From NCBI GenBank assembly GCA_003170995.1, contig PMXT01000065.1:1-6816 (forward strand): 6,816 bases of DNA, given 5' to 3'. The stretch comes from Actinomycetota bacterium (GTDB taxonomy: Bacteria > Actinomycetota > Thermoleophilia > Gaiellales > Gaiellaceae). Within the stretch, counting starts at the first letter, position 1. Every line of letters begins with the position of its first letter. The translations under genes and the position numbers were made by a program. This document shows, piece by piece, positions 1 to 6,816 of the stretch. The notes beneath the pieces are model-generated. The model saw only the letters and a program-made list of their open reading frames with translations. It searched no databases and was not told the origin of the DNA.

Positions 1-2112
1 GGCCACGTCGGCGGTGATGTGCTCCTCGAGGCGGCCGGTACGGATGGCGACGACCTCTCCACCGGGCAGGCGGCCGAGCTGCGGCGTGACGTCGAGCTCG
101 GAGCGAGTCGACTCCCAGGGGAAGCGCGCTCCGGCGCGCCCGCTTGCCTGCGCGGCAGCCCGCGCCGGCTCGAGGCGGTTGAGCCTGTAGCGGAGGATCG
201 CGCGCGCCGAGGCCGGGTGAGTAGCGGCAAAGAAGGGAAGCGAGAAGACGTCGGTGTCCCAGAAGATGTGGCCGCGATATCTGGGGCCCGAAAGGCCGCC
301 GGCGCCGATCGCGGCCTCGCCGCTATCCGGTGCGGCCGACATCAGGCCAAAGAGTGAGTAGCGAACCGCGAGTTGAAGGGATGGGTCTCCTTCGATGACG
401 ACGTCCGCATCGCGCCAGCGCTCGCCCCAGCGCTCGCGGTGCTCGGTGTAAAGGCGCTCGAAGCCGGCCTCGCGCGCTACCTGTAGCGACGCGAGCGACT
501 CCAGCTCGCAGTCGCCGTAGTCGACAATCCGCTCGAGCAAGCGCTCCTCTCGTTTCTCGGCCGCCGCCGCGACGACTCGCTCGACGTTGACCGACTCTGC
601 GATCGTGATGTCGTCGAGGCGATGAAAGCTGGTCTCGGTTCCCTCCTGCTCGGGAGCGGTGAGCGGCGAGGAGGAGGCAAGCATCTCCTGCGGTCCGAGC
701 GCACGCAAGCAGGCGGTTCCCGGGCGGGCGAAGGAGTGGAAGAGCAAGGCATCGAGCCTCAAGCCGTCGCTGCGCACGAGCTCGTGACGAAGTGTTCCGG
801 TGCGCATGTCGAGTACGCGGCGAACGTGCTCGGCCGCGGCGCCCTCGATTCTGTTCCAGATGGGTGCCGCCAGCAGCTCCTCCTCGGAGCCGCGTCCCGC
901 ATAGCGTCCACCCATACGCACCGTCGGTCCGTTGACCGACCCGGCGAGAAGTGAGCCGCGAGCACCGATGCGACCGTCCGCCAGCGTTAGCACGGTCTCG
1001 TGCACGGTTTCCTTGCTACCACCGTGATCATCGATGATGACCTGCCAACCTTCCTCCTGAACGGATTGCGGTAACTCGCCCTCCTGGCGCCGCCGGAGCT
1101 GGTCGGCGAGGATGTCGGCGAAGAGCTCGGGTCCGCCGCCGAGATCGAGCACGCCTTGCGGAGTCCCTTTCGGCTCGGGTCCAACCGAGAAGTAGACGGC
1201 ACCGGCCGCCTCGGGCACGAGCATCAGAGAATCTGAGCCCGGGCTGTTGCCTAGGGGTCCGAACTCGTCACCGGCGATCAGCGTCTGCTCGGGTCGGACA
1301 CCGCGGCGCTCTAGCCAGGCGAGAGCGTAGTGCGCGGAGTCGGTCTTGTCGGTCAGGCCGATCTCGGCGTGTTTGGCGTCAGAAGTGACACGCGGATCGC
1401 TGAGCCCGGCCTCTAGTCCGCATACACGTGTGAGTTCGACAGCCCCGCGCAGTCCCTCGATCCCGGCGTTAGCCAGCCGCGCCTCGACCGCTTTCAGTAG
1501 TTCGGACAGGTGGGCCTTCGGAGGATCGGCCCATTCAGGAAGCGGAATCAAATCGATCTTGCGCCGGTTGATCCGGTTGGAGATGACTGACACCGTAAGT
1601 CCCTTCTCGCGCAGGCGCGCAGAGGAGAGCTCGGCGGCGCGATCGAGCGCCTCCTCTTCCTCGGCGCTGGCGTCGCGGCGCTCGAGCAAGACCGGGCCGA
1701 AAGAGGTCAGCTCGTACACCTCCGAGCCACGATTACAGGCGACGATGATTCGTCCCGGCCCGTGCGGGCGCAGCCCGAGCTGTTCATCGACATTGCCGAT
1801 ATCGGTGCCGGTGATGATCGCAAGGTCGAAGCCGGCGTCGACGAGCACACCGAAAAGCTCGCGTAGCGCGCTTGCGTCGGCCTCGCGGTCGGTAACCGCG
1901 GTGCCATCCCAGTCGAAAACGACGGCCTCGAAACGGTGGTCTAGCGCAGCTGCGAAGCCGTCTGTGAGCGCGAGCTTGAAGGTGCCGCTGGTGCGCTCCG
2001 AGCGCCGCTCTTCGAGGGCATTCGGGTCGAGCTCCACAGGTCCCGTCTTCACTCCGGATGTATCGGCAGGCTGCTTACCAGAGTGAGCGTTATCGAGAGG
2101 GTTAGTGGCCAT
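1..2112 (-). CDS. HAD phosphatase-like / glycoside hydrolase family 65 fusion protein (3' end beyond window)
   Basis: An open frame of 704 codons runs leftward off the window with no stop. An N-terminal tail of about 60 residues leads into a HAD domain: motif I VFDWDGT (65-71, D67 and D69), motif II region IITGT (99-103), CNRGSEVYEL (126-135), a lysine-rich stretch NRRKIDLIPLPEW (182-194), and motif IV AGDEF (280-284). A GH65 N-terminal domain follows (RVLDMRTGTLRHE, 431-443), then the start of the (alpha/alpha)6 catalytic domain with the GH65 signature GHIFWDTDVF (614-623) and EEHITADVA (696-704). GH65 enzymes phosphorolyse or hydrolyse alpha-linked disaccharides such as maltose, trehalose and kojibiose. 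The HAD part may process the sugar phosphate. The architecture resembles mycobacterial OtsB1-type proteins. The GH65 general-acid Glu lies beyond the edge, so activity and substrate cannot be judged. ATG at 2112 is chosen; an in-frame GTG at 2121 is possible, and neither has a strong ribosome site. Confidence 0.93.
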   Translation of the reverse strand, partial: MATNPLDNAHSGKQPADTSGVKTGPVELDPNALEERRSERTSGTFKLALTDGFAAALDHRFEAVVFDWDGTAVTDREADASALRELFGVLVDAGFDLAIITGTDIGNVDEQLGLRPHGPGRIIVACNRGSEVYELTSFGPVLLERRDASAEEEEALDRAAELSSARLREKGLTVSVISNRINRRKIDLIPLPEWADPPKAHLSELLKAVEARLANAGIEGLRGAVELTRVCGLEAGLSDPRVTSDAKHAEIGLTDKTDSAHYALAWLERRGVRPEQTLIAGDEFGPLGNSPGSDSLMLVPEAAGAVYFSVGPEPKGTPQGVLDLGGGPELFADILADQLRRRQEGELPQSVQEEGWQVIIDDHGGSKETVHETVLTLADGRIGARGSLLAGSVNGPTVRMGGRYAGRGSEEELLAAPIWNRIEGAAAEHVRRVLDMRTGTLRHELVRSDGLRLDALLFHSFARPGTACLRALGPQEMLASSSPLTAPEQEGTETSFHRLDDITIAESVNVERVVAAAAEKREERLLERIVDYGDCELESLASLQVAREAGFERLYTEHRERWGERWRDADVVIEGDPSLQLAVRYSLFGLMSAAPDSGEAAIGAGGLSGPRYRGHIFWDTDVFSLPFFAATHPASARAILRYRLNRLEPARAAAQASGRAGARFPWESTRSELDVTPQLGRLPGGEVVAIRTGRLEEHITADVA

Positions 2113-2454
2113 GCGCTTCACTAGTCCCGAGACGATCGCCGCGCGACGCAGTTAGTCTGAAGAACAAGGCGGCTAGACCCGCGAAGTGAGCGTTCTGCGG
2201 TGATTATGGACCAGCGCACGCAGCAGTCACCGGTAAGTCTTTTTTCCACAAGCCAGTACCTCGAGCTCGAGTTAGATACAGACACTCGGTCGGGCGGTCG
2301 CAGTGGCACCGCTGAGGTCTTCGTTCCGAAGTGAGTCCTTACTCAGTCTGCTCTCCTAGACGCCTTTATCTAAAGAGAGGAACAGTGGTCGCTCTCGATA
2401 GAGATGCTACCCGTGCGATGCCCACTGCCGTTTGGAGTCGTGGGCTGCGGCGAG
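2113..2454. other. Non-coding gap between HIT gene and HAD-GH65 gene
   Basis: This 342-base stretch has no convincing gene. Short open frames here lack recognisable protein features. It contains the candidate promoter at 2203-2230 and the CTCGAGCTCGAG palindrome at 2260-2271. It also has a 6-bp inverted repeat, GCCCAC (2420-2425) with GTGGGC (2440-2445), just beyond the HIT stop codon. That hairpin could help end HIT transcription but has no T-run after it. I see nothing else in the stretch. Confidence 0.6.
2203..2230 (-). promoter_or_regulatory. Candidate promoter of the HAD-GH65 gene
   Basis: Read on the minus strand, GTGACT (2230-2225) and CATAAT (2208-2203) are separated by 16 bp. They match the sigma-70 consensus at 4/6 and 5/6 positions. 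Transcription would start near 2196 and give a leader of about 84 bases before the ATG at 2112. A 12-bp palindrome, CTCGAGCTCGAG (2260-2271), lies just upstream. CTCGAG is common in this GC-rich DNA, so the palindrome may be chance. This is pattern matching only. Confidence 0.3.
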
Positions 2455-2940
2455 CTATTCGTTCCAGGCGGCCTCGAGCCGAGTGTGAGTCACCTGGAGA
2501 TGCTCGGGAACGACCCTGACGTCGGCCAGGACGGGCATGAAGTTCGTGTCGCCCTGCCAGCGGGGAACGACGTGCTCGTGCACGTGATCGGCGATTCCGG
2601 CCCCGGCGTTGCGTCCGAGGTTCCAGCCGATATTGAACCCGTCTGGCTGGTAGACGTCGCCGAGCACCTCCAGGGCGCGTGCGCTGAGGGCGTGGATCTC
2701 TGCGGCCTCCTGCGCGCTCAGCTCCCGTAGATCGCCGACGTGTCGTATCGGCGCCACCATCAAATGGCCGGACGAATAGGGGAAGCGGTTGAGCAGGACG
2801 AAAGCGGTCTCACCCAGATGAACGACCAGCGACTTCTCGTCGTTCGGCGCTGAGGTGGCTCGGCAGAAGATGCAACCTGTTTGCTCGCTTGCGCTGGAGA
2901 CATACTCCAGCCGCCAGGGTGCCCAGAGTGGGTCGGTCAT
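2455..2940 (-). CDS. HIT family protein, Ap4A phosphorylase-like
   Basis: This 161-residue protein starts at the ATG ending at 2940. The frame stays open further upstream, but homology-like sequence begins only at MTDPLWAPWRLEYV, typical of actinobacterial HIT proteins. CxxC (C23, C26) is a probable half zinc site. The histidine triad HVHEHVV (H119, H121, H123) carries the expected nucleophile H121, and FNIGWNLGRNAGAG (102-115) is the conserved strand and loop before it. Proteins of this type, such as mycobacterial Rv2613c, split diadenosine tetraphosphate or related dinucleotides through a nucleotidyl-His intermediate in the cytosol. Length is normal. The gene begins 13 bases after the stop of the 82-residue gene upstream, which suggests co-transcription. 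Its ribosome site (AAGAG) is weak. The family call is firm; phosphorylase versus hydrolase is not settled. Confidence 0.95.
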   Translation of the reverse strand: MTDPLWAPWRLEYVSSASEQTGCIFCRATSAPNDEKSLVVHLGETAFVLLNRFPYSSGHLMVAPIRHVGDLRELSAQEAAEIHALSARALEVLGDVYQPDGFNIGWNLGRNAGAGIADHVHEHVVPRWQGDTNFMPVLADVRVVPEHLQVTHTRLEAAWNE

Positions 2941-2953
2941 TGCAGCTCTTGTA

Positions 2954-3202
2954 TCAAACGAGCGGGTCGGAGTCAGCTTCGTCAGGCGACGGCTCGATCT
3001 CCTCGCTCGGCTCGCGTGTGTCGAGGCGGTTCTCGAAGGCCTCGCGGAGACGCTCGCCAGAGACATCGGTCTCGTAACGCGCGCGCCTCGGCTCGACCTT
3101 GATGATGCGCACCTCATCGCCGCGACTCCCGTGGCAGCGGTTGTAAGCCTCGGCCTCGCCGAGGGGCTTCAGCTCTTTGTGAGTTCGCCGCAGTAGCGAC
3201 AC
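2954..3202 (-). CDS. Small conserved-looking protein upstream of HIT gene (unknown function)
   Basis: I do not recognise this 82-residue protein. It is charged and has no membrane segment. The middle (residues about 22-57) carries YNRCHGSRGDEVRIIKVE and a segment with RYETDVSGERLREAF, which reads like a small folded domain. The last 20 residues are an acidic Glu/Asp/Pro-rich tail, probably disordered. There is one Cys-His pair (RCHG), too few ligands for a classical zinc finger. Codons are strongly GC-biased in the third position like neighbouring real genes. A GTG start at 3202 is chosen because AGGGA lies 6 bases upstream; a TTG two codons earlier would abut that motif. The gene sits 13 bases before the HIT gene on the same strand, so a shared transcript is likely. 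It could still be a chance frame. Confidence 0.65.
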   Translation of the reverse strand: MSLLRRTHKELKPLGEAEAYNRCHGSRGDEVRIIKVEPRRARYETDVSGERLREAFENRLDTREPSEEIEPSPDEADSDPLV

Positions 3203-3208
3203 AGACAA

Positions 3209-3237
3209 TCCCTAGCACCGTTGGAACGTGATGGCAA
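3209..3237 (-). promoter_or_regulatory. Candidate promoter of the small protein-HIT unit
   Basis: On the minus strand, TTGCCA (3237-3232, 5/6 to the -35 consensus) is followed after 17 bp by TAGGGA (3214-3209), similar to GC-rich actinobacterial -10 elements. The GTG start lies 6 bases beyond the -10, so this promoter would make a leaderless message. AGGGA is also what I used as a ribosome site. The two readings compete and only one may be right. Confidence 0.3.
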
Positions 3238-3250
3238 CCACAGCGCGGCC

Positions 3251-3262
3251 GTTACCGGTAAC
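3251..3262. promoter_or_regulatory. 12-bp palindrome, possible operator
   Basis: GTTACCGGTAAC is a perfect palindrome centred about 55 bases upstream of the GTG at 3202, just beyond the candidate -35. Its place fits a regulator site for the small protein-HIT unit. No second copy was seen in the window, and no regulator can be assigned. Confidence 0.3.
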
Positions 3263-3293
3263 CGGGCGAGGTTGCGTCGAAACCGAGAAACAA

Positions 3294-3324
3294 GGGAAGC
3301 GGAGCGCCGCCTGCTCCGCTTCCC
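3294..3324 (-). terminator. Strong hairpin, probable minus-strand terminator
   Basis: GGGAAGCGGAGC (3294-3305) and GCTCCGCTTCCC (3313-3324) form a perfect 12-bp stem with a 7-base loop. Read on the minus strand, the stem is followed by TTGTTTCT, a T-rich tail consistent with intrinsic termination. On the plus strand the following TACCTT is poorer. It would stop leftward transcription coming from the zinc-ribbon gene or antisense to the tRNA before it enters the HIT promoter region. A different structural role is possible. Confidence 0.5.
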
Positions 3325-3378
3325 TACCTTGGAAGATTTGTCACCGTCGCCGCGCCTCGAGCGCTGTGCCGGTTGCCT

Positions 3379-3452
3379 AGGGGGATCTCTACCATATGAA
3401 GATCGACCCTATATGAATATTGTCATATCCATATAGGTTGCGGTATCCCCCT
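3379..3452. repeat. AT-rich patch with nested inverted repeats
   Basis: In an otherwise GC-rich window this stretch is unusually AT-rich and full of dyads. The outer arms AGGGGGAT (3379-3386) and ATCCCCCT (3445-3452) are perfect complements, as are the inner arms CCTATATG (3408-3415) and CATATAGG (3430-3437). A third pair, TATGA (3412-3416) and TCATA (3423-3427), is nested inside. CCATAT also occurs at 3392-3397 and 3429-3434. The layout suggests a multi-site operator or a cruciform rather than a terminator, since no T-run follows. It lies between the hairpin at 3294-3324 and the tRNA promoter region. Confidence 0.55.
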
Positions 3453-3524
3453 GAGTGTGCTTGACCATTCTCCTTGACGCCGATGCTCACCAACACGGCG
3501 TGACGCCCTCGTGAGCTCGATCAC

Positions 3525-3530
3525 TAGACT
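3525..3530 (+). promoter_or_regulatory. Candidate -10 element of tRNA-Arg
   Basis: TAGACT (4/6 to TATAAT) ends 9 bases before the mature tRNA 5' end, so transcription would start almost at the tRNA. The best -35 candidate is GTGACG at 3500-3505, with a long 19-bp spacer. The -10 is plausible; the -35 is weak. Confidence 0.35.
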
Positions 3531-3539
3531 GAGCTGCAA

Positions 3540-3612
3540 GCGCCCGTAGCTCAGGGGATAGAGCGCGCGCCTCCGGAGCGCGAGGTCGCAGGTTCGATTC
3601 CTGCCGGGCGCG
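3540..3612 (+). tRNA. tRNA-Arg (anticodon CCG)
   Basis: A complete 73-base cloverleaf can be drawn. The acceptor arms are GCGCCCG (3540-3546) and CGGGCGC (3605-3611), the D stem is GCTC/GAGC, and the anticodon stem is CGCGC/GCGCG. The seven-base loop is CTCCGGA with anticodon CCG at 3573-3575. The T arm is GCAGG-TTCGATT-CCTGC. The discriminator base is G3612, and CCA is not encoded (TTC follows), so the 3' end must be added by the CCA enzyme. It reads the CGG arginine codon, which is frequent in GC-rich genomes. Confidence 0.97.
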
Positions 3613-3641
3613 TTCTCAACGCGCTGGAGCGACGCTGGACT

Positions 3642-3716
3642 GCAGGAGGCCACTGCTGCGGAGCTTGTCCGTACCGTGTGTACTGTCCTGCGCCTCGCAA
3701 CCGTGGCCTCCTCTGC
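3642..3716. repeat. Long-range inverted repeat downstream of tRNA-Arg
   Basis: GGAGGCCAC (3645-3653) and GTGGCCTCC (3703-3711) are perfect complements. Pairing extends by GCA (3642-3644) with TGC (3714-3716) across a 2-base bulge, giving about 12 pairs around a 49-base loop. The loop contains a smaller GTAC...GTAC dyad (3671-3674, 3680-3683). The rest of 3613-3810 shows no gene. The structure could shape the 3' end of the tRNA precursor, act as a terminator without a T-run, or be a small structured RNA. Confidence 0.4.
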
Positions 3717-3810
3717 CAGCCCTCCCTAGCGCGCTGAGAAGGCAACTCATGAGGTGCGAGTGAGTGGAGCTGGGGATGGCGTCTCGTTGGCCGCCTGTTC
3801 CTATCGGTCT

Positions 3811-4413
3811 TCAGGCCTTGCCGCAGCTGGCGCAGAAGGCGGTGCCGACGCGGCGCTCTTTGCCGCAACTCGAGCACTCGCCGACTACCTCGCGTCCGCA
3901 TCCTTCACAGTGCGCGCTGCCGCGCGACGGATAGCCGCAGAACGGGCACTCTCCCTTGCGGACGCGTCTGGAGGGGATGTGGCGAGCGAGGTAGCGCTGT
4001 AGCAAGGCGAAGGAACCCACGGTCAGCGCGATACCCAGCAGAGAGAGGATGAGTGGTCCGAGATCGAAAGTCGGGTTGCTGGAGGCGTTCGTGTAATCGC
4101 TGGCGAAAAAGAGGGCGAGTATGCAGGCGGGAACGATCACGCCGAAGGCGAGCGGGAGATAGCGCGATCGTCGCCGCCTCAGTCGCGAGAGAAGAAACAG
4201 ACCTGCAGAGAGAAGAGCGACCGTAAAGGCGAGCTCCGCTAAGCCGCTCTTCAAGGTGTGCTCGCCATAGACACTGACAGGGCCGAAGCGATCGCCGATC
4301 TTCTGGTAGGCCCAGATCGCTCCGATGAAGACGAAAATCCCGAGCACAAAGGCGAGCAGCTTCTCGCTCTTGGTCGAGGCGATCTCCTCGATGCCGACCT
4401 TCTCACTTCTCAA
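3811..4413 (-). CDS. Four-TM membrane protein with C-terminal double zinc ribbon
   Basis: This 200-residue protein has a short cytosolic N-terminus and four likely transmembrane helices (about 19-37, 58-76, 85-104, 118-138). The second and third helices are joined by a very basic loop (RLRRRRSRY). The last 45 residues form two zinc ribbons, one with C156, C159, C169 and C172 and one with C180, C183, C194 and C197. The ribbons probably lie in the cytosol with the basic loop. The start is TTG at 4413, supported by GAGGGAGGAG (4430-4421) at ribosome-site distance. It overlaps the end of the XRE gene by 11 bases, so translation is probably coupled. No enzymatic motif is visible. The ribbons suggest binding of a protein or nucleic-acid partner at the membrane, but the function is unknown. 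Confidence 0.88.
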   Translation of the reverse strand: MRSEKVGIEEIASTKSEKLLAFVLGIFVFIGAIWAYQKIGDRFGPVSVYGEHTLKSGLAELAFTVALLSAGLFLLSRLRRRRSRYLPLAFGVIVPACILALFFASDYTNASSNPTFDLGPLILSLLGIALTVGSFALLQRYLARHIPSRRVRKGECPFCGYPSRGSAHCEGCGREVVGECSSCGKERRVGTAFCASCGKA

Positions 4414-4738
4414 CTTGCTTCTCCTCCCTCGTCTTGGTTCGCGGCCTGAGCCGTACCTCGAGCTCGCAGTCGAGCGCTTTGGCGACTCGTTGCAGCGTGT
4501 CGATTCGGGGTGGGCGGGCGCCCGCCTCGAGCCGAGCGATCGCGGGTTGGCTCGTCGCGCAGAGCTCCGCCAGCTCCTTCTGCGAGAGATCGCGCGCTAT
4601 CCGTTGCTCGGCAACTTGCTCGGCGATCTCGCCGATCAGACGTTTGTCGGGGTCGTCATAGGAGAGGCGCTCGCGCAGGCGCTGCAAGCGCCGACGGCCG
4701 CCCTTTCTCGCTGACGATTCGGTCTCTAGTTCACTCAT
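4403..4738 (-). CDS. XRE-family helix-turn-helix regulator (HigA-like antitoxin type)
   Basis: This 111-residue protein has a basic N-terminal arm (about 11-25). The XRE/Cro-CI HTH spans residues 42-96: LSQKELAEL (51-59) and SQPAIARLEAG (63-73), then RPPRIDTLQRVAKAL (75-89). This form, with a C-terminal strand (CELEVRLRP), is common in HigA-type antitoxins and in standalone regulators. The ATG at 4738 is chosen over the open extension upstream because the extension has no protein-like conservation and crosses the promoter region. No RelE/HigB-type toxin is adjacent, and its partner in the operon is the zinc-ribbon membrane protein. A perfect dyad at 4746-4760, 7 bases upstream of the ATG, suggests autorepression. 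No ribosome site is visible, so the message may be nearly leaderless. Confidence 0.92.
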   Translation of the reverse strand: MSELETESSARKGGRRRLQRLRERLSYDDPDKRLIGEIAEQVAEQRIARDLSQKELAELCATSQPAIARLEAGARPPRIDTLQRVAKALDCELEVRLRPRTKTREEKQVEK

Positions 4739-4745
4739 GTAGATA

Positions 4746-4760
4746 CCATAGATGATATGG
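4746..4760 (-). promoter_or_regulatory. Dyad operator overlapping the XRE promoter
   Basis: On the minus strand the site reads CCATA-TCATC-TATGG, with two perfect 5-bp arms separated by 5 bp. It lies 8-22 bases before the XRE ATG. TATCAT inside it (plus-strand 4752-4757) is a good -10 match (5/6), so a protein bound here would block transcription. XRE proteins often repress themselves from such sites. Binding by this protein is inferred. Confidence 0.5.
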
Positions 4761-4761
4761 A

Positions 4762-4789
4762 TTGACGCTACGTCTTTGACTGAGATACG
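4762..4789 (+). promoter_or_regulatory. Candidate promoter of the metallophosphoesterase gene
   Basis: TTGACG (4762-4767, 5/6 to the -35 consensus) is followed after 16 bp by GATACG (4784-4789, 3/6 to the -10). Transcription would start near 4796, about 24 bases before the ATG. The -35 directly abuts the XRE dyad, so the XRE protein could affect both directions. The -10 is weak. Confidence 0.3.
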
Positions 4790-4819
4790 TACCGGCCCGC
4801 GTCGTGCGACGATGTCGCG

Positions 4820-5311
4820 ATGGGAACGGTCAGGGTCGTCTGCCTTTCGGACACACACCTACGCCGCCGGCACGCGCTACCGGCCTGGTGCCTTCGCCGC
4901 CTCGAGGGCGCCGATCTGATCCTGCATGTGGGGGACATGGTGGCGCTCTCCGTGCTCGAGGAGCTCGAACGGCTGGCTTCGGTAGCGGCGGTGCGCGGGA
5001 ACATGGACGAGATCTCTCTCAGGGAGAGACTTCCGTCGCATCGCATCGCCGAGATTGGAGGCGCCAGGATTGGGCTAGTGCACAATCCTGGGCCTGCGCT
5101 CGGGCGAGCGACGCGCCTCGAGAAGTCGTTTCCCGGTTGCGACGCGGTTGTATACGGGCACACCCACGTGCCCGAGATTCGGCGGCTCGGCCGCCGCATG
5201 ATCCTCAACCCGGGCAGTCCGACCGTTCCGCGATCGACCCTGGGGGCGACGATGCTCGAGCTCACGATATTGTCTGACGAAACGATCGAGCCGGTGTTCG
5301 TTACGCCTTGA
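4820..5311 (+). CDS. YfcE/MJ0936-type metallophosphoesterase
   Basis: This 163-residue protein, the usual length for the family, is a compact calcineurin-like phosphoesterase. The metal ligands are all present and in order: SDTH (D11, H13), HVGD (D39), RGNMD (N61), LVHNPG (H88) and YGHTH (H114, H116). The family tail motif LNPGSPTVPR (129-138) follows. Relatives bind two divalent metals (often Mn or Ni) and cleave phosphodiesters; the natural substrate is generally unknown. It is cytosolic with no signal peptide. No clear ribosome site precedes the ATG, but a small hairpin, GCGAC-GAT-GTCGC (4806-4818), ends just before it. Divergent from the XRE gene by 81 bases. Its stop codon overlaps the -35 element of the LysM gene, which marks the end of this unit. 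Confidence 0.94.
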   Translation: MGTVRVVCLSDTHLRRRHALPAWCLRRLEGADLILHVGDMVALSVLEELERLASVAAVRGNMDEISLRERLPSHRIAEIGGARIGLVHNPGPALGRATRLEKSFPGCDAVVYGHTHVPEIRRLGRRMILNPGSPTVPRSTLGATMLELTILSDETIEPVFVTP

Positions 5312-5336
5312 CACGAACACGTGTTCGCAATACCAT
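5308..5336 (+). promoter_or_regulatory. SOS-type promoter of the LysM gene
   Basis: A perfect -35 TTGACA (5308-5313) and -10 TACCAT (5331-5336, 4/6) are separated by exactly 17 bp. The spacer is filled by the palindrome CGAACACGTGTTCG. Transcription would start about 6-9 bases after the -10, essentially at the ATG (5346), giving a leaderless or nearly leaderless message. The -35 overlaps the stop codon of the upstream phosphoesterase. A repressor in the spacer would block RNA polymerase completely. Confidence 0.8.
5314..5327. promoter_or_regulatory. LexA (SOS) box 1
   Basis: CGAACACGTGTTCG is a perfect 14-bp palindrome. It matches the Gram-positive/actinobacterial LexA box core GAAC-N4-GTTC, including the outer C and G. 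It occupies bases 1-14 of the 17-bp promoter spacer. LexA itself is not in the window, so binding is inferred from the motif and its position. Confidence 0.8.
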
Positions 5337-5338
5337 GG

Positions 5339-5352
5339 CGAACATATGTTCT
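5339..5352. promoter_or_regulatory. LexA (SOS) box 2, containing the start codon
   Basis: CGAACATATGTTCT holds the perfect 12-bp palindrome GAACATATGTTC (5340-5351), another GAAC-N4-GTTC match. Its centre is 25 bp from that of box 1, about two and a half helical turns. It covers the expected transcription start, and its central ATG (5346-5348) is the start codon. Two boxes suggest tight repression. Confidence 0.7.
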
Positions 5353-5591
5353 CCCGCTTCGTTACGATTGTTCTTCTGCTAGTCGCTCTGTGGGGTGGTC
5401 TGGCGCATACGTCGGGCGCATCGGGACACGGCGGTACATATGTGGTCAAGTCGGGTGACACCCTCTGGTCGATCGCTCACCGCTTCTACGGCGGCGATTC
5501 GCGCAGGGGTGCATGGGATCTCGAGCGCCGAAACGATCTCGGGCAAGGCGCAGCGCTGGCTCCAGGGCAACGCCTAGTCCTTCCCTGGTAG
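5346..5591 (+). CDS. Membrane-anchored LysM protein, probable SOS-induced cell-division inhibitor (YneA/ChiZ-like)
   Basis: This 81-residue protein has one hydrophobic segment (about 5-20) acting as a membrane anchor or uncleaved signal. A short Gly/Ser/His linker (21-30) follows. A single LysM domain fills the rest (31-80), with YVVKSGDTLWSIAHRFYGG at its N-terminal half and LAPGQRLVLP at its end. LysM binds the glycan strands of peptidoglycan, so the domain should face the cell-wall side. A short TM + LysM protein under LexA control is the design of B. subtilis YneA and mycobacterial ChiZ (Rv2719c), which delay division after DNA damage and are encoded beside lexA. Here lexA is not adjacent. 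The role is inferred from promoter plus architecture. The ATG lies inside LexA box 2; an ATG at 5335 is out of frame. A general wall-binding role remains possible. Confidence 0.9.
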   Translation: MFSRFVTIVLLLVALWGGLAHTSGASGHGGTYVVKSGDTLWSIAHRFYGGDSRRGAWDLERRNDLGQGAALAPGQRLVLPW

Positions 5592-5655
5592 GAATTCGCA
5601 AGCGAAAAGCCGTCTCACCTCGTTTCGCGCGGAGCTTTGGCAGTAGGGAAGTTCT

Positions 5656-5661
5656 TATACT
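5656..5661 (+). promoter_or_regulatory. Candidate -10 element of the DUF167-dksA-lspA unit
   Basis: TATACT (5/6 to TATAAT) ends 7 bases before the DUF167 ATG at 5669, so a transcript from it would be leaderless. No good -35 is seen at 16-18 bp upstream; the nearest T-rich sequence is CTTTGG (5635-5640), at 15 bp. An upstream dyad, GCGAAA (5602-5607) with TTTCGC (5623-5628), could be a weak terminator of the LysM gene or a regulator site. This promoter would let the following genes run independently of the SOS promoter. Confidence 0.4.
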
Positions 5662-5668
5662 GAGAGAT

Positions 5669-5980
5669 ATGTCGGGGGCGCAGACGCGGCTCTCCCTACG
5701 CGTCTCACCCGGCGCCAGGAAGAGCGCCGTCGTCGGCCGCTATGGGGAGAGGTGGAAGATACGGGTGGCTGCTCCTGCGGAGTCTGGGAGAGCCAATGAA
5801 GCCCTACTCGCGCTGCTCGGGAAGACGCTAGGAGTTACTCGATCGCAGGTTCGAGTCGTTACCGGAGTTGGCGCTCGTGACAAGATTGTGGAAGTGATAG
5901 GAATCAACGCCGAGGAGAGCGAGCGCCTGCTAAGCGCCTCGGCTGGAGAAGGCGAGGCAAATGAAGGCAAGCGAGCGTAA
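5669..5980 (+). CDS. DUF167 / YggU family protein
   Basis: This 103-residue protein matches the DUF167 (UPF0235, YggU) family along most of its length. It has LRVSPGARKSAVVG (10-23), IRVAAPAESGRANEALLALL (31-50), VRVVTGVGARDKIVEV (61-76), and a charged C-terminal tail. The family is small, soluble, widespread and of unknown biochemical function. The frame is open far upstream inside the LysM gene, but family-like sequence begins at the chosen ATG, which also follows a -10 element by 7 bases. GAGAG next to the ATG is too close to be a normal ribosome site. The last 20 bases overlap the DksA-like gene, indicating an operon. Confidence 0.93.
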   Translation: MSGAQTRLSLRVSPGARKSAVVGRYGERWKIRVAAPAESGRANEALLALLGKTLGVTRSQVRVVTGVGARDKIVEVIGINAEESERLLSASAGEGEANEGKRA

Positions 5981-6329
5981 CGGTTATAAAAAGTCGCTTC
6001 TCGAAGAGAAAGAGCGCCTGAGCGCCGCGCTCGAGTACCTGCACGCGGAGAACCCCGGAGCCGACGAGGAGCAGGAGCTCGAGCTCAGTAGCCTCCAAGA
6101 GCATCTCGCCGAGGCTGGGTCGGTGACGCTGGAAAGGGAGATCGACTACTCGCTCGAGGAGGTCGTGAACGAGCGGCTCGCGGCGATCACAAAGGCGCTC
6201 GAACGAATCGAGCAGGGAAGCTTCGGCCTCTGCGTGTCATGTGCGGCGCCAGTCGCTGCCGAGCGTCTAGCGGCGCTGCCGTGGGCGAGTCTCTGTATCG
6301 ACTGCAAACGTCGTGAGGAGCGCGGTTGA
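5961..6329 (+). CDS. DksA/TraR-type C4 zinc-finger protein
   Basis: This 122-residue protein is mainly helical and highly charged over residues 1-85, consistent with a coiled coil. A C4 zinc finger follows: CVSC (C91, C94) and CIDC (C112, C115), with the typical FGLCVSC...RLAALPWASLC spacing. DksA/TraR proteins enter the RNA polymerase secondary channel; DksA works with ppGpp. The acidic DxxDxA tip of E. coli DksA is not recognisable here, so a direct polymerase effect is uncertain. Start ATG at 5961 has AAGG (5949-5952) and GAGG (5954-5957) upstream, within the coding end of DUF167, with a 20-base overlap. The stop TGA overlaps the TTG of lspA. Close relatives occur before lspA in several actinobacteria, from memory. 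Confidence 0.93.
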   Translation: MKASERNGYKKSLLEEKERLSAALEYLHAENPGADEEQELELSSLQEHLAEAGSVTLEREIDYSLEEVVNERLAAITKALERIEQGSFGLCVSCAAPVAAERLAALPWASLCIDCKRREERG

Positions 6330-6816
6330 GCGAGCAGATTCGCCAACTCCCCGAGGTACGAGTCGGCTCTTCTCCCGACGCCCTCACGCCGATCTCGGTC
6401 GCCGAGAAGCAACTCGGTGCCGGGTTTTGGCAATGGTTCAGCTTCGCCTTGGTTGCGCTCAGTGCGCTAGGTGCCGATCAGCTGACCAAGTGGCTCGTGA
6501 CCAGCCGCCTGGCGATCGACTCGAGCGTATCGGTAGCGGGTCCCCTCGAGATCAGCCATGTGCAGAACTCCGGTATCGCCTTCGGGTTGTTTTCACAGTC
6601 CACTTCGCTGGTAATCGTTTTGACTTCGGCCGTAGTCCTCTGGATGGTCGTCTTCTTCGCACACTCGGGCGCGAGGCACCCGTTGCTGCCGGCGGCGCTC
6701 GGGCTTGTCGTTGGCGGCAGCGTCTCGAACCTGTTCGATCGTGTCACGAACGGTTACGTGACCGACTTCGTCGATTTCGGGCTCTGGCCGACGTTCAACC
6801 TCGCCGACTCGGCGGT
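6326..6816 (+). CDS. lspA: Lipoprotein signal peptidase (signal peptidase II), 3' end beyond window
   Basis: 163 codons of an aspartic protease of the inner membrane that removes the signal peptide of lipidated prolipoproteins. A 37-residue soluble N-terminal extension precedes the first membrane segment (about 38-58), which holds ADQLTKW (50-56). HVQNSGIAFG (78-87) matches the conserved NTGAAF region. GGSVSNLFDR (130-139) and FNLADSA (157-163) carry the catalytic aspartates D138 and D161. The gene is cut after the second one, so only the last membrane helix and tail are missing. The start is TTG at 6326, overlapping the DksA-like stop (TTGA). GAGGAG (6315-6320) lies 5 bases upstream, an excellent ribosome site. 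The overlap implies translational coupling. Confidence 0.97.
   Translation, partial: MSEQIRQLPEVRVGSSPDALTPISVAEKQLGAGFWQWFSFALVALSALGADQLTKWLVTSRLAIDSSVSVAGPLEISHVQNSGIAFGLFSQSTSLVIVLTSAVVLWMVVFFAHSGARHPLLPAALGLVVGGSVSNLFDRVTNGYVTDFVDFGLWPTFNLADSA

Follow-up and report, generated by a model that had tools for sequence, protein, structure and literature searches.

Does a small membrane protein with a LysM domain, encoded behind a pair of palindromes and away from lexA, halt cell division after DNA damage in relatives of Gaiella? The question is raised by a stretch of DNA of 6,816 nucleotides (hereafter the window), positions 1 to 6,816 on the forward strand of contig PMXT01000065.1 from an Actinomycetota bacterium (GCA_003170995.1; Thermoleophilia, Gaiellales, Gaiellaceae), whose genome assembly amounts to 1.91 Mb in 200 contigs and is 84% complete. 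A first-pass annotation had read one of its genes as a candidate SOS-controlled division checkpoint relocated from lexA.

Gene content of the window

The gene in question (5346..5591, forward strand) encodes a protein of 81 residues, in which we detected an uncharged hydrophobic segment at residues 5-20 (5358..5405, forward strand; hydropathy), lying in a predicted helix spanning residues 2-22 (AlphaFold), and a LysM domain at residues 32-80 (5439..5585, forward strand; PF01476, E 1.2e-9) with a predicted beta-alpha-alpha-beta fold (AlphaFold and Foldseek). The architecture of one hydrophobic segment and one LysM domain is as first annotated, and the Pfam search returned no second domain in the protein. 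Upstream lies a YfcE-type calcineurin-like phosphoesterase gene (4820..5311, forward strand; PF12850, Metallophos_2, 4.6e-33). Downstream, on the same strand, are a DUF167 gene with a tentative start (5669..5980; PF02594, 2.7e-21), a dksA/traR-type zinc finger gene (5961..6329; PF01258, 3.6e-10) and lspA, encoding signal peptidase II, which continues past the window end (6326..6816; PF01252, 3.1e-29). These Pfam matches confirm the gene order read in the first-pass annotation. Elsewhere in the window, ARAGORN located a tRNA-Arg with anticodon CCG (3540-3612), and an intergenic inverted repeat lies upstream of it (3408-3437; 13-nt arms, 92% complementary, 4-nt loop).

Promoter, boxes and start codon

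The promoter and the two palindromes that had been proposed for this gene are both present. The -35 hexamer TTGACA (5308..5313, forward strand) and the -10 hexamer TACCAT (5331..5336, forward strand) are separated by 17 bases and together match 10 of the 12 consensus bases, where 0.2 promoter-like sites would be expected in the 551-base region; the TGA stop codon of the phosphoesterase gene (5309-5311) sits within the -35 hexamer. Both palindromes are perfect GAAC-N4-GTTC boxes and are predicted LexA operators. Box 1, GAACACGTGTTC (5315..5326), occupies the promoter spacer. Box 2, GAACATATGTTC (5340..5351), spaced 25 bp from it, encloses the start codon (GAACAT-ATG-TTC), a feature absent from the earlier reading. 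Only 0.08 GAAC-N4-GTTC sites are expected in the window, and none of 200 window shuffles held at least two. Genome-wide, single sites occur at chance frequency (26, versus 25 for a reversed control pattern), so lone sites were dropped as evidence and the argument is built on pairs, position and conservation.

Judged by promoter spacing, transcription is predicted to start at 5343..5345 (forward strand), 7-9 bases past the -10 hexamer. The same layout recurs in the family: a TTGACA-like hexamer is found at -38..-33, the best -10 hexamer begins at -15 or -14 in 84 of 90 loci, and 8 or 9 bases separate its end from the start codon, again in 84/90. A -35/-10 pair matching at least 9 of 12 consensus bases was found in 80 of the 90 loci, compared with 0.7% of mononucleotide-shuffled upstream regions. 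Between -20 and -4, no Shine-Dalgarno-like 5-mer was detected in any of the 90 loci, unlike ssb of the same genus, which has a GGAG-type site. Because the -10 hexamer ends only 8-9 bases before the start and no such 5-mer precedes it, the mRNA is predicted to be leaderless or nearly so.

Conservation in the family and order

A protein search matched the LysM protein in 92 of 103 family genomes (93 loci, one genome having two), and contig ends explain three of the 11 genomes lacking a match. Orthologues were identified in 112 of 129 genomes of the order, and profile matches in 126 of 399 genomes of the class.

The box overlapping the start codon is perfect in 89 of the 93 family loci, located at -6 with a choice of start that favoured the box. 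Two other loci carry one mismatch, GGAC for GAAC (L075 and L093), and in two more contig ends cut the gene before its start (L114 and L122). When starts were placed by alignment to the window protein alone, ignoring the boxes, 81 of the 93 alignments opened at residue 1; a perfect box at -6 accompanies 80 of them. Farther out, at -27 to -32, 82 of the 90 family loci with 100 bp upstream show another perfect box, and the remaining eight have no perfect box 1. In three genomes of one genus (L098, L103 and L104) the LysM gene is preceded by yet another perfect box, the third, at -50.

Beyond the family, 20 loci from families f2 and f3 of the order were compared; in 19 the start codon falls inside a box (L258 is the exception). 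Family f4 (five genomes) yielded neither the LysM protein nor the two-box pattern. Searching DNA for the box-gap-box-with-start pattern, with no protein query, we found it in 103 of the 129 order genomes and 29 of 42 genera; the reversed control gave no match in any of the 129. Among the pattern places listed, five lay away from known loci when compared by eye with the protein matches. The places in G017, G037 and G046 are LysM-gene starts cut by contig ends and missed by the protein search, the one in G079 completes a truncated LysM gene, and that in G082:C39 lies elsewhere. The first-pass annotation had named homologues without boxes as grounds for rejecting its proposal; nearly all relatives examined keep both the boxes and the architecture of a membrane segment plus LysM.

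The neighbours are far more variable. A phosphoesterase was recognised directly upstream in 38 of the 88 loci with room for one, and DUF167, dksA and lspA downstream in six loci, all from the same genus. A conserved operon with DUF167-dksA-lspA was rejected, since it would rest on these six loci of one genus.

Place relative to lexA and origin of the gene

The window's own genome has a lexA gene with both LexA domains (G000:C175), and 96 of the 103 family genomes have a lexA match. Both the LysM gene and a lexA domain at E 1e-10 or better are present in 76 family genomes; a count by eye puts them on one contig in just two (G038 and G045), about 850 kb and 1.34 Mb apart. A LysM motif was found in none of the open reading frames divergent from lexA in 39 order lexA loci (frames of at least 70 residues starting within 800 bp; L134 has only 315 bp upstream). 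The position away from lexA that had been proposed holds in the genomes examined. An apparent second, lexA-divergent LysM copy in the own genome (L024, 5392-5595; tblastn E down to 3e-5) was rejected as chance, because it has no single open frame and a gene with a weak, sub-cut-off match to DUF4829 lies on the other strand. Weak LysM hits in L126, L133, L135, L149 and L152 were likewise discarded, the open frames over them having no LysM motif.

Outside the order, lexA-linked LysM genes occur in Acidimicrobiia, Dormibacterota, Chloroflexota, Clostridia and family f6 of the same class. From a collection of named genomes we took the best 80 of 270 relatives, 17 of which are loci of the own family. 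Of the other 63 among these best 80, which include one order-mate (L195), 38 are divergent from lexA, with a box between the two genes in 32 of the 38; the remaining 25 had no lexA in the flank examined. Named records group the family with Gaiella, a member of Gaiellales: the locus of G045 also occurs in Gaiella sp. FR_16. In f6, at 13 of the 14 matched loci, the LysM gene directly follows lexA in the same orientation; a contig end truncates the remaining locus. Two boxes precede lexA in all 13, and a start codon inside a box was not found in the f6 loci.

That the gene had been "relocated" is borne out as far as its separation from lexA is concerned; the word further assumes that lexA linkage is the older state. 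A tree of 102 proteins (complete family proteins were subsampled by taking every third, 30 in all) clusters the groups without settling the direction of the move: its columns are few and its bootstrap had not settled. A single group, that of family f1, formed one side of a branch (94/87). An alternative for the origin of the gene, which concerns its history and not its action, is that the LexA regulon of this order acquired another LysM gene, so that the checkpoint is convergent and not a displaced lexA-linked gene. LysM proteins are common, and the same tree, with its few columns and many rows, gives no supported nesting of the orphan forms within lexA-linked ones. In the 14 matched f6 genomes, however, with 14 candidates scored in each, the profile picks the lexA neighbour in 13, and the lack of a divergent LysM frame at the 39 order lexA loci is what would be expected had the gene moved. 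We regard recruitment as unlikely, though it is the best of the alternatives considered here.

A YneA-like protein

Complete members are 78-88 residues long. All but one of 91 members have a mean hydropathy of 1.6 or higher over 19 residues, and the first eight residues include K or R in 89 of the 91 and D or E in one. AlphaFold (27 rows; mean pLDDT 78, pTM 0.52) predicts the helix at residues 2-22, a weak linker and then the LysM fold. The top PDB matches by Foldseek are LysM domains of an NlpC/P60 enzyme, at E 0.005, with none passing 0.001. The top family for the window protein is the NCBIfam YneA model, NF010723 (E 3.4e-7); residues 6-80 align with model positions 7-85 out of 87, and every one of the 27 members scanned gave a match (best E 3e-12). 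At 30.1 bits, the window protein stays below the equivalog cut-off of 60, and for this reason we name it YneA-like and not YneA.

Like the YneA type, the protein has a single N-terminal membrane segment followed by one LysM domain (Pfam, hydropathy and AlphaFold; the topology is predicted), and a predicted LexA operator lies at the promoter of its gene. Adjacency to lexA, a usual and not a defining trait of the type (PMC6851548), was not found. Within the LysM domain, the motif [DE][TS][LMV][WV] is present in all 88 members of over 75 residues, with DT in 80. This DT may be the counterpart of D46 and T47 of YneA.

Could the protein be induced by DNA damage and act on the wall without stopping septation, strengthening or remodelling it instead? 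LysM is a general wall-binding domain, other models of LysM proteins (DipM, ActS and MltD among them) also match the window protein below their cut-offs, and SOS control does not by itself point to division. Against this stand the YneA model, which is the best match and spans both the membrane segment and LysM, the lack of a second domain in the Pfam search, and the many closest homologues outside the order (among the best 80 of 270, and in f6) that adjoin lexA as known inhibitors do. A wall factor of this kind appears improbable to us. More doubtful still is a cleaved signal peptide at the N-terminus, which would leave a small LysM protein to be secreted. The run without charged residues, His, Asn or Gln is short (14-19 residues, mean 16) and an Ala/Gly/Ser-rich linker follows it, but the 19-residue hydropathy and the predicted helix fit a membrane segment, and YneA is itself described as a protein of a membrane segment plus LysM (PMC13396833).

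The box before lexA and other genes

Absence of lexA from the genome would have counted against the proposal. The lexA gene is there, and the same box, GAACAGACGTTC, begins 43 bp upstream of its start. The box precedes lexA in all 31 family loci inspected (the 30 best-scoring and the own locus) and in eight of eight further loci of the order, 39 of 39 in total. It also fits the LexA motif given for Streptomyces, tCGAAC-N4-GNNCGa (PMC9380542). As the same box stands before lexA of the own genome and of its relatives, the LysM gene is a predicted member of the LexA regulon.

Other boxed genes were also identified in the own genome. At a polymerase gene of the IMS type (imuB-like), two boxes begin 17 bp from each other (L022, 1570-1598), and the second encloses an in-frame ATG, as it does at the LysM gene. 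In all six genomes of the genus, a perfect box starts at -30 before ssb (L027, 1596-1607; L298-L303) and at -117 to -138 before dnaB, encoding the replicative helicase (L019, 2026-2037; L306-L311), which suggests that both genes are under LexA control in this genus. No box with up to one mismatch was found within 500 bp upstream of recA (L125).

At a contig end (L028, 1-205), a box at 194-205 lies before a reverse-strand frame that, in translation, reads like the PHP start of dnaE2; a Pfam search with 60 residues of another frame at this end gave no match. Another perfect box precedes an ABC transporter gene by about 80 bp (L029, 1991-2002).

That the palindromes serve another regulator and leave the LysM gene outside the SOS regulon is scarcely credible: single sites do occur at chance level genome-wide, but the same box recurs before lexA in every locus inspected and before ssb and dnaB throughout the genus, and it fits the Streptomyces motif (PMC9380542).

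Proposed action and meaning

Taken together, the analysis indicates that the 81-residue protein is probably a YneA-like, LexA-repressed inhibitor of cell division, acting on septal wall synthesis, whose gene is unlinked from lexA. LexA dimers would occupy box 1, between the -35 and -10 hexamers, and box 2, which covers the predicted transcription start together with the start codon, keeping RNA polymerase off and blocking the gene twice. On DNA damage, RecA on single-stranded DNA would trigger self-cleavage of LexA, and the leaderless mRNA would be made. The protein would then insert with its short basic N-terminus inside and LysM outside. On the model of YneA from Bacillus subtilis, the membrane helix might dock on a SEDS polymerase such as FtsW (the own genome encodes three proteins of the FtsW/RodA/SpoVE family), and LysM might bind septal glycan, halting septal wall synthesis. 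The brake would end when LexA returns and proteases remove the protein.

We also favour, with somewhat less confidence, a broader reading in which the locus represents a portable SOS division checkpoint of Gaiella type. A brake made of a membrane segment plus LysM would carry its entire control within 44 bp: a -35 hexamer overlapping the upstream stop codon, a LexA operator filling the space between the two hexamers, and another operator that incorporates the start codon of a leaderless mRNA and so dictates Met-Phe as the first residues. This unit, complete in 29 of 42 order genera amid changing neighbours, would have freed the checkpoint from lexA.

A pair of boxes, the second of them holding the start codon, identifies the gene across most of the order without need of its neighbourhood, and the gene is a concrete candidate for the halt of division after DNA damage in Gaiella-related bacteria. 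An operator on the start codon may also serve as a rule for finding displaced checkpoints elsewhere, for example in Streptomyces. Finally, the natural series of lexA-divergent, lexA-downstream and unlinked genes lets one ask what purpose linkage to lexA serves.

Comparison with known systems

SosA of staphylococci and DivS of Corynebacterium are small, SOS-controlled, single-pass membrane inhibitors of division. The window protein differs from both in having LysM. SOS-linked division inhibitors are known in Gram-positive bacteria (PMC3998124, with no mention of the present one), and the small membrane proteins among them, described in a few model organisms, commonly adjoin lexA (PMC6851548); the latter source describes SosA and DivS as having no LysM domain and as encoded near lexA. 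Streptomyces is reported to have no clear homologues of the known inhibitors (PMC9380542). Our searches of the open-licence PMC literature yielded no description of SOS-controlled division inhibitors from Thermoleophilia or Gaiellales, and none of a lexA-unlinked form with the start codon inside the operator.

ChiZ (Rv2719c) of mycobacteria is a DNA-damage-induced negative regulator of division with a membrane segment and LysM (PMC3989709, PMC6851548), and is, like the window protein, actinobacterial. Its residues 1-64 form a disordered region (PMC7355643), whereas the hydrophobic segment of the window protein starts at residue 5 and no long disordered N-terminal region precedes it. ChiZ also has a reported hydrolase activity, for which Pfam shows no counterpart domain in the window protein, and its gene is lexA-linked.

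The best profile homologues outside the order are the lexA-linked LysM genes, which share the membrane segment plus LysM at the C-terminus and in most cases have boxes between them and lexA or before lexA. Unlike the window gene, they lie divergent from lexA or just downstream of it, and they often have a longer open frame before the membrane segment.

YneA of Bacillus subtilis, the relative studied in most depth, is a small protein that likewise pairs a single membrane segment at the N-terminus with a single LysM domain, which is extracellular in YneA and predicted to be so in the window protein. YneA is under SOS control, as the predicted LexA operators suggest for the window gene. Through its membrane segment YneA binds TM7 of FtsW and is brought to the septum, and the block of septal wall synthesis requires that LysM bind the wall (D46, T47 and I81; PMC13396833); the proteases YlbL and CtpA remove it (PMC6051672). 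The window gene differs from that of YneA in being unlinked from lexA, in having its start codon inside an operator and in its predicted leaderless mRNA, and the window protein in having only about four residues before the hydrophobic segment. The type of effector is thus familiar; its place away from lexA and its compact operator-start control are new, as far as the open-licence PMC literature was searched.
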